Shown: positions 44,751 through 45,788 of the stretch, in pieces
Position numbering within the stretch: the first letter of the stretch is position 1
Layout: each line of letters opens with the position of its first letter
Assembly (NCBI GenBank): GCA_017549105.1
Contig: JAFYVN010000011.1
Location: 1-64,000 of the forward strand
Direction of reading: 5' to 3'
Origin: Clostridia bacterium
GTDB taxonomy: Bacteria > Bacillota > Clostridia > Oscillospirales > Acutalibacteraceae
Length of the DNA stretch: 64,000 nucleotides
Translations under genes and position numbers: made by a program
Notes under the pieces: model-generated
Told to the model about the DNA's origin: nothing
The model's database searches: none
Seen by the model: the letters and a program-made list of their open reading frames with translations, nothing else

Positions 44751-44779
44751 TTGACAAATTTCAAATATTAGCTTATTAT
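44751..44779 (+). promoter_or_regulatory. Promoter of the sigma factor / tRNA-like / zinc-ribbon unit
   Basis: TTGACA (44751-44756), a 17-bp spacer and TATTAT (44774-44779), overlapping an additional TATAAT at 44777-44782. Confidence 0.7.
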
Positions 44780-44810: not shown

Positions 44811-45389
44811 ATGCAAATAAATCAGCAAAAAAAATTGTCTGATGAAGAGCTTGCGGTTCTTGCCGCAAACGGCGATGATGAGGCTATGGCTCATCTTATT
44901 TCTGCCGTCACTCCCATCGCAAGGGCAAAGGCATCGGGCTTCGCAAACGCAAGAATTTCGAACGAGGATTTAACCCAGGAGGGTATGCTCGGATTTCTTG
45001 ATGCGGTCAAGAAGTTTGACCCGTCAAAGGGTGTGCCGTTCAAGGCATTTGCCGAAATCTGCATCAACAACAGAATCATTTCCGCTGTGCGAATGAATTT
45101 CAACAGCAAAAACGCCGCTCTCTCAAATGCGGTTCCGTTTGAAGCGGATTCCGTTGACATTGCTGCAGGCACCGACCCCGCCGATATTATATCCGACAAG
45201 TTTGAAACCCAGTATCTTGCAGAGCTTCTGAGCAGCGGACTTTCCGAATTTGAAAAGAAAGTCATCGATTTGCGTCTTCAGAACAAAAGCTATGCTCAGA
45301 TTGCGCAGGAGCTTGACCGAAGCGAAAAGGCGGTTGATAATGCGCTTCAGCGAATCAAAAGCAAGATGCACCGAAAACTCAATAAATAA
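44811..45389 (+). CDS. Sigma-70 family factor (SigH-like)
   Basis: A 192-residue alternative sigma factor. Region 2 reads ISNEDLTQEGMLGFLDAVKKFDP, with KGVPFKAFAEICINNRIISAVR, and region 4 reads LSEFEKKVIDLRLQNKSYAQIA, followed by KAVDNALQRIKSKMHRKL. The region 2 style resembles Spo0H/SigH rather than ECF factors. GAGGT lies 7 nt before ATG 44811. It is not in the usual sigH neighbourhood (rlmB, secE). A GNRA-loop hairpin (45391-45404) and a tRNA-like element follow within 25 nt, then a zinc-ribbon gene, apparently in one transcript. Confidence 0.85.
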   Translation: MQINQQKKLSDEELAVLAANGDDEAMAHLISAVTPIARAKASGFANARISNEDLTQEGMLGFLDAVKKFDPSKGVPFKAFAEICINNRIISAVRMNFNSKNAALSNAVPFEADSVDIAAGTDPADIISDKFETQYLAELLSSGLSEFEKKVIDLRLQNKSYAQIAQELDRSEKAVDNALQRIKSKMHRKLNK

Positions 45390-45410
45390 TACTCCGCAAG
45401 GAGTAAATAT

Positions 45411-45480
45411 ATGCCCACGTAGCTTAAAGCAGAGCGTTGAAATTCAAAGGTGGCGGTGCGATTCCGTCCAAGGGCGTCAA
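45411..45480 (+). ncRNA. tRNA-like structure upstream of the zinc-ribbon gene
   Basis: About 70 nt that fold like a tRNA with a reduced anticodon arm. Acceptor: GCCC (45413-45416) pairs with GGGC (45472-45475). TA is followed by a D arm GCTT-AAAGCA-GAGC (45422-45435). A 4-bp mini-hairpin TTGA/TCAA (45437-45447) replaces the anticodon arm. The T arm GGCGG-TGCGATT-CCGTC (45452-45468) has G instead of the universal second U of the TUC loop. The 3' end reads G then TCA instead of CCA. AAGGAG at 45398-45403 precedes a three-codon frame ATG-CCC-ACG-TAG that overlaps the acceptor. It is not a functional elongator tRNA, so a regulatory leader is more likely. Confidence 0.55.
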
Positions 45481-45509
45481 AAATATTTTTTCAAGCGAGG
45501 TTAACAACA

Positions 45510-45788
45510 ATGTACGAAGACAAGACTCTCATCTGTAAGGAATGCGGCGAAGAATTCATCTTCACAGCCGGTGAACAGGAATTCTATGCTGAAAAAGGCT
45601 TTGTAAACGAGCCCCAGCGCTGCAAGACATGCCGTGACGCACGCAAGAATGCTGCCCGTGGCGAGCGTGAATGGTTTGAGGCAACATGTGATTCCTGCGG
45701 TGGAGTTGCAAAGGTTCCCTTTAAGCCCCGTGAGGACAGACCCGTTTACTGCAGCGAATGCTTCGCAAAGAAGCAGGAGCAGGCATAA
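45510..45788 (+). CDS. Zinc-ribbon protein (zf-trcl type)
   Basis: A 92-residue protein with two CxxC pairs making zinc ribbons: LICKECGEEF with RCKTCRDARK, and CDSCGGVAKV with YCSECFAKK. Relatives are small, widespread, uncharacterised proteins in Clostridia, often annotated as zinc-ribbon or cold-shock related. ATG 45510 (MYEDKTLICKEC) has GAGG 9 nt upstream; a longer reading from 45450 starts inside the tRNA-like element and is rejected. The leader is the tRNA-like structure, and a strong terminator follows. Nucleic-acid or ribosome binding is a guess. Confidence 0.88.
   Translation: MYEDKTLICKECGEEFIFTAGEQEFYAEKGFVNEPQRCKTCRDARKNAARGEREWFEATCDSCGGVAKVPFKPREDRPVYCSECFAKKQEQA

Follow-up and report, generated by a model that had tools for sequence, protein, structure and literature searches.

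In searches of one open-access library, no element of the kind described here was recognised; the nearest system encountered is the yjdF riboswitch, likewise a tRNA-shaped mRNA leader in front of a Shine-Dalgarno (SD) sequence, which is reported to be a homolog of tRNA-Lys (PMC9142559). Bacterial mRNAs and riboswitches cleaved by RNase P form a second group of relatives, being reported as non-tRNA substrates inside mRNAs (PMC11143913, PMC4919922). RNase P reads the D-T elbow and the RCCA of its substrates; the bacterial enzyme prefers U at position −1 and, in B. subtilis, A at position −2, and these preferences are species-dependent (PMC4919922). A third comparison is offered by raiA RNA (RF03072), a structured RNA that in other lineages lies, like the present element, just before the same zinc-finger (zf) gene. 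The element itself was found in the leader of the zf gene of the window, i.e. the whole 64,000-nt stretch of DNA that was analysed. On balance, we consider it probable that a domesticated tRNA-Thr(GGT) gene is present, which now serves as zf 5' leader with a tRNA-shaped end made by RNase P.

The leader element of the window

All features of the locus lie on the forward strand. The upstream gene (44811..45389) encodes a SigH-like sigma factor (Pfam Sigma70_r2 and r4_2; the top NCBIfam models are of the PRK08295/SigH type, with scores below their cut-offs) and is preceded by a promoter-like site (44751..44779, TTGACA-17 nt-TATTAT, 11/12 matches in a consensus scan) that is likely the operon promoter, a consensus match alone being no proof of function. 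A further promoter-like site within the sigH 3' end (45313-45341, TTGACC-17-GATAAT), which may merely reflect the codons there, could give rise to a zf transcript. The sigH stop is separated from the element by a hairpin with GCAA loop (ACTCC-GCAA-GGAGT, 45391..45404), followed by AUAU at positions −4 to −1 (45409..45412), the proposed leader contact of RNase P, whose putative cut is placed 5' of G1 (45413). The element (45413..45476, positions 1-73 in tRNA numbering) is a 64-nt cloverleaf that scored 82.4 bits with R1, the covariance model of the family; it consists of the acceptor 5' strand GCCCACG (45413..45419, opposite 45469-45475), the D arm GCTT-AAAGCA-GAGC without G18G19 (45422..45435), a reduced anticodon arm TTGA-AAT-TCAA without anticodon (45437..45447) and the T arm GGCGG-TGCGATT-CCGTC with G55 (45452..45468). 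The SD sequence of the zf gene, AAGCGAGG, is located at 45493..45500, and the zf gene (45510..45788) encodes a 92-residue double treble-clef protein (zf_Tbcl PF13451, zf_Tbcl_2 PF23477, TIGR04272).

A preliminary description of the locus had listed the GCAA hairpin, its AAGGAG, an ATG-CCC-ACG-TAG frame (45411..45422), the cloverleaf, the anticodon arm of 4 bp with 3-nt loop, the T-loop TGCGATT and the GTCA after GGGC, all of which are present in the sequence; its length of 70 nt has to be corrected to 64 nt, and the acceptor exists with two of its seven pairs (5-68, 6-67) failing to form.

In a cmscan analysis of the whole window, 45413-45476 matched the Rfam tRNA family (RF00005) with 39.2 bits (cut-off 29, E 9.4e-5), the sole family of Rfam 15 to reach gathering level in the 64 kb; the match was the lowest-scoring of 13 tRNA matches in the source genome (64% complete), and no tRNA was called by ARAGORN in the window. 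The 3-nt loop takes the place of the 7-nt anticodon-bearing loop of a tRNA, and the D-loop AAAGCA together with G55 lacks the G18G19/U55C56 elbow. Membership in the SpF41 sRNA family (RF02435), described as streptococcal and tRNA-like in its consensus, was rejected, as the match of 20.6 bits stayed far under the gathering score of 52. In the interval 45380-45520, where three Rfam matches were obtained at a threshold of E 10, the yjdF riboswitch (RF01764) was not among them; the tRNA-like four-way junction before the SD sequence is the feature that the element shares with it. The window sequence alone folded no better than its shuffles (z −0.52) and is not unusually stable on its own; the proof of structure is comparative.

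Covariation, gene neighbourhood and promoters

Searches for the zf gene yielded 110 loci, 103 of them distinct after removal of duplicates, in which the element was then placed by structural parse. It was found in 76/103, in 71 of these 76 with a sigma gene within 400 nt; the earlier proposal of a tRNA-like structure that accompanies the zf gene is borne out, the structure being conserved. Orthologous loci devoid of the structure, named beforehand as the outcome that would make it a decayed relic, therefore account for the smaller part: 27 loci (22 with and five without sigma gene upstream) either lack the element or have it too changed for the parse. Some of them matched R1 weakly, e.g. L085 (29.0 bits) and L089 (26.2 bits), and no R1 match was obtained for L015, L016, L040, L041, L043 and L044. 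The sigH-zf loci L040, L041, L043 and L044 carry a different leader about 100 nt 5' of zf, by eye with two hairpins and compensating changes.

R1 was seeded with 28 of 55 non-redundant copies, chosen for 7-nt acceptor strands on both sides and including the window copy as L001. From the MAFFT alignment of these 28 sequences alone, RNAalifold recovered the cloverleaf, the inner acceptor pairs being missing; with the structure supplied, the same alignment gave a covariation of 0.150 compared to 0.079 for shuffled alignments. The R1 alignment comprises 90 copies (86 distinct rows) and is fitted to the structure and hence biased towards it: here 92.8% of the cells pair versus 87.1% after shuffling and at most 56.9% with slid partners, and covariation amounts to 0.173 versus 0.080 and at most 0.053, respectively. 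Changes on both sides of a pair were counted in 92 cells compared to 36 in shuffled alignments and involve 10/19 pairs; compensatory changes in the stems had been named in the preliminary description as support. For one of the inner acceptor pairs, most cells do not pair (53/83). The tRNA-like element is confirmed as real and more than a product of chance.

Among the contacts of the tRNA core, U8-A14 is kept in 85/86, G26-A44 in 82/86, A15-U48 in 67/86 (A-C in nine) and U54-A58 in 86/86 distinct copies. The D-loop retains GG in 5-6/86; position 55 is U in 9/90 copies and G in 78; the 3' CCA, encoded in 162/165 nearby tRNA genes, is present in 0/90 copies, the 3' side being mostly A-rich in its place. 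The core of the tRNA thus survives, whereas little or nothing remains of G18G19, U55, anticodon and CCA. Copies differ in the length of the anticodon arm; in L008 and L025 it is lengthened by long insertions, with the remainder of the element kept.

At E 1e-12 and with strict filters, R1 matched 86/394 genomes of the order and gave no match in the other 308. From the 86 genomes 80 copies were fetched, the others being already in the sample, which resulted in a pool of 167 distinct copies once duplicates had been dropped. A zf gene follows in 165/165 copies with at least 150 nt of downstream sequence, and a sigma gene precedes 158/165 copies with at least 500 nt upstream, or 159/165 if L289, whose upstream frame is a divergent sigma factor by Pfam, is counted as linked, as was done here; two copies with less than 500 nt upstream were left out of the sigma and AUAU tests. 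Both neighbours were also present in 39/39 loci from the R1 matches (best-scoring, tRNAs excluded, window included). The 76 parse copies were found via the zf gene, so that their zf linkage is not independent; neighbouring genes played no part in the choice of the R1-found copies, although they did in that of the R1 seed.

The six unlinked copies without sigma gene upstream (L050, L077, L105, L285, L288, L296) all possess a TTGACA/TATAAT-like site (10-12/12 matches) within 100 nt before G1, the −10 hexamer of which ends 18-48 nt before G1, as opposed to the 159 linked copies, where the same interval contained a site with at least 11 matches in none and with at least nine in 18. Since the unlinked copies have a promoter-like site of their own just upstream, the element belongs to the zf mRNA and travels with the zf gene. 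In the linked loci the distance from the sigH stop to G1 is short (median 21 nt; at most 45 nt in 137/152) and leaves little room for a promoter. Culturable commensals that show the linked arrangement include Ruminococcus bicirculans 80/3 (L076) and Acetanaerobacterium elongatum (L095). An SD-like tetramer precedes 163/166 scored zf starts. Compared to mononucleotide shuffles, the 40 nt in front of the element are on average more stably folded (mean z −1.39, 85/167 below −1.5).

Relation to tRNA-Thr(GGT) genes

Among 38 loci examined for tRNA-like R1 matches in class and phylum, 36 are preceded by a sigH-like gene in the same orientation, and a tRNA-Thr(GGT) occurs in 36; gene orders after sigH include Gly(ccc)-Thr(ggt) (seven of the 38) and Tyr-Met-Thr(ggt) (14). 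The frame following some of these sigH-tRNA loci is, as recognised by eye, presumably EF-Tu. The tRNA-Thr(GGT) of the sister lineages occupies the same place after sigH and shares with the element the GCCC...GGGC acceptor (present in 12/12 sigH-type genes inspected), the D stem and the core of the T stem; in contrast, the element has neither anticodon nor CCA, GG is rare in its D-loop, position 55 is mostly G, and the zf gene is its immediate downstream neighbour.

Loci of transitional type occur in other families of the class: 38 of 60 zf loci have a sigma gene upstream, and in 13 of these 38 a tRNA-Gly(ccc) lies between the two genes. In four intermediates (L158, L298, L330, L341) the order is sigH-Gly(ccc)-degenerate tRNA-zf, and in the degenerate tRNA the T-loop reads TTCAA and the D-loop contains GG. 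At L315, L322, L327 and L329, little beyond an acceptor-like hairpin appears to remain just after tRNA-Gly(ccc). According to alignments of the two halves against a comparison pool of 116 tRNAs (including 19 of the sigH-type Thr; partly fetched for matching R1, and labelled by sequence), sigH-type Thr(GGT) was the best class for 118/167 copies and joint best for a further 12, another tRNA scoring higher for 37, among the latter L146; for the intermediates it was best in L298, L330 and L341, with a four-way tie for L158. A second tRNA-Thr(GGT)-like match (TTGGTAA type) exists elsewhere in 10/12 probed genomes and is absent in two (G048 and G228, the latter 61% complete); with a second tRNA-Thr elsewhere, the sigH-linked copy would have been free to change. 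Synteny and sequence, taken together, strongly suggest that the element descends from a tRNA-Thr(GGT) gene. The term tRNA mimic, used at the outset, is better replaced by descendant.

Probable descent from a tRNA gene would also be expected of a decayed, functionless relic; this reading is barely credible in view of the compensatory changes, the near-invariant core over many genera and the persistence of the element after it had left sigH.

The AUAU leader, zf expression and known leader RNAs

AUAU occupies the positions −4 to −1 of 70/90 copies, and the bases farther upstream drift. AUAU is also the commonest leader tetramer of the nearby real tRNA genes (28/165; A−4 in 104, U−3 in 87, A−2 in 98, U−1 in 126), these 165 genes being taken from the loci L148-L217 of order, class and phylum with one doubtful gene, the L158 element, included. 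With respect to RNase P recognition, the window and the 70 copies agree with the consensus of pre-tRNA leaders in this lineage, whereas the 3' RCCA contact is lacking in all 90; the missing CCA and the altered D-T elbow should weaken cutting by RNase P. AUAU is present in 112/159 sigH-linked and 1/6 unlinked copies (Fisher p = 0.012, with only six unlinked copies and the comparison made after the first three of them had been seen; p = 0.033 in its first form with L289 counted as unlinked); exceptions exist on both sides, since one of the six unlinked copies keeps the tetramer and 47/159 linked ones are without it. Judged from the leader sequence, RNase P would cut between AUAU and G1 and give rise to a tRNA-capped zf mRNA; among the partners initially suggested, which included a tRNA-processing enzyme, it is the one favoured here.

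A lengthening of the acceptor, in which AUAU would pair with a second AUAU on the 3' side, was considered and found possible but not convincing, such a partner being present in 46/114 AUAU copies versus 33 expected from shuffles; a perfect downstream complement was seen in 8/53 deviant leaders, and the 128-nt window fold pairs AUAU with a downstream AUAU stretch.

AUAU bears as well on the three-codon frame AUG-CCC-NNG-UAG, for which a role was considered. An ATG is found in 142/167 copies, the first in-frame stop is at codon 4 in 142/167, and AAGGAG stands in front of the frame in the window copy; a regulatory mini-ORF is very unlikely nonetheless, because the stop consists of U8, A9 and G10 of the tRNA fold and AUAU occurs also before real tRNA genes. 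Moreover, the preceding AAGGAG is not a feature of the family, an SD-like tetramer being found in 15/167 copies, close to the 8.7 expected by chance, and a role of the AAGGAG itself is not supported. With the SD lacking and the stop structural, a mini-ORF attenuator is disfavoured; the frame looks like a by-product.

Building on structure, position, linkage and leader signal as read from the sequences, we infer the following course of events for the reading by descent and RNase P processing. An ancestral tRNA-Thr(GGT) located after sigH would have been excised from the sigH transcript by RNase P; anticodon, CCA and the usual D/T-loop elbow would then have been lost while zf sat directly downstream. 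In present-day loci, sigH and zf would be transcribed jointly, the tRNA core would fold, and the cut between AUAU and G1 would release two pieces: an upstream one with sigH, in many cases carrying a hairpin close to the 3' end thus created, and a downstream one, the zf mRNA, whose 5' end would be enclosed in a tRNA-like cap some 25-40 nt ahead of the start codon. The cap may protect the zf mRNA, aid ribosome loading, or both. Outside the sigH operon, a promoter situated 18-48 nt before the element would take over, and the cut would be less needed.

The strongest rival, which may hold jointly with RNase P processing, is a direct effect on translation: the fold itself, by ribosome contact or as a ligand switch, would raise zf translation, and cleavage would be unimportant. 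The location of the element shortly before the SD sequence and its retention behind private promoters are in line with this possibility, as is the precedent of tRNAs placed upstream of an SD sequence, for which a 2- to 6.3-fold gain in expression in vitro is reported (PMC9142559). We rate it as a serious possibility at somewhat less than even chances: AUAU, which is outside the fold and yet conserved and matches tRNA leaders, is left unexplained, and the predicted folds, in which no switch was found, give no clear picture of the SD as free or hidden (mean unpaired 0.45, 164 copies).

raiA was detected in 56/291 genomes of the class; in at least 20 of the 56 (24/56 comparable) it precedes zf in the same orientation, at a distance of 38-121 nt; the distances among these at least 20 genomes include 38-40 nt (nine) and 114-121 nt (11). 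L323, L338, L343, L344 and L350 are among the places with raiA directly upstream of zf. raiA is absent in 38/38 sigH-linked and present in 7/22 unlinked genomes of the class, a split that may simply follow phylogeny. The long leaders upstream of zf at L331, L333, L335, L337 and L347 recall raiA by eye; those of L331, L335, L337 and L347 scored under the raiA gathering score. In the ModT paper, many sigH-dependent genes are reported to be less expressed in a raiA knockout, which has more tRNA; the word zinc does not appear in the main text of the paper (PMC11706538).

It is conceivable, if rather unlikely, that the zf protein has affinity for tRNA-like RNA and acts, by binding the element, as a repressor of its own mRNA. 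In favour of this, the same single gene follows each of the 165 copies with sufficient downstream sequence, and in other lineages it has raiA, likewise a structured RNA, immediately upstream; against this, no RNA-binding relative of the zf protein was found by sequence or fold, the best PDB sequence match (a zinc finger) having E 0.017 and the best Foldseek match E 0.18 with a model predicted from the single sequence (pLDDT 85.8, pTM 0.59). Release of the element as a stable small RNA acting in trans, which zf would merely adjoin, appears quite improbable: the tRNA fold and the RNase P-like leader would permit it, and raiA, reported to be an abundant RNA (PMC11751092), adjoins the same gene in other lineages, but the element stays with zf in the six unlinked genomes and lacks CCA.

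As the raiA-zf distance of 38-40 nt in one group is close to that of the element, the two RNAs may be interchangeable partners. The full scenario, in which a tRNA gene turned via living intermediates into an RNase P-made mRNA cap and in which element and raiA are interchangeable partners of a zf protein that reads structured RNA, is speculative and would hold with low probability. If true, the latter part would connect raiA RNA with a protein as well as with the growth stage of sigH; the shared neighbourhood as such offers a protein lead for this abundant RNA. The probable conversion of a tRNA gene into an mRNA control element would be traceable, its likely origin, intermediates and derived forms being found in one synteny block of bacteria common in animal guts; the copies constitute a large natural data set on what a non-decoding tRNA fold does and offer a direct test of RNase P shaping operon expression.

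Compared to the described systems, the element differs from raiA, which has its own Rfam model, a model without match in the genome of the element. In relation to RNase P-cleaved mRNAs, it represents a whole cloverleaf with tRNA-like leader that is conserved widely in an order, its cutting being putative. Finally, the element has a 2-nt junction between acceptor and D arm instead of the purine-rich J1/2 ligand site of the yjdF riboswitch, precedes another gene, points to tRNA-Thr, and is provided with an RNase P-like leader.
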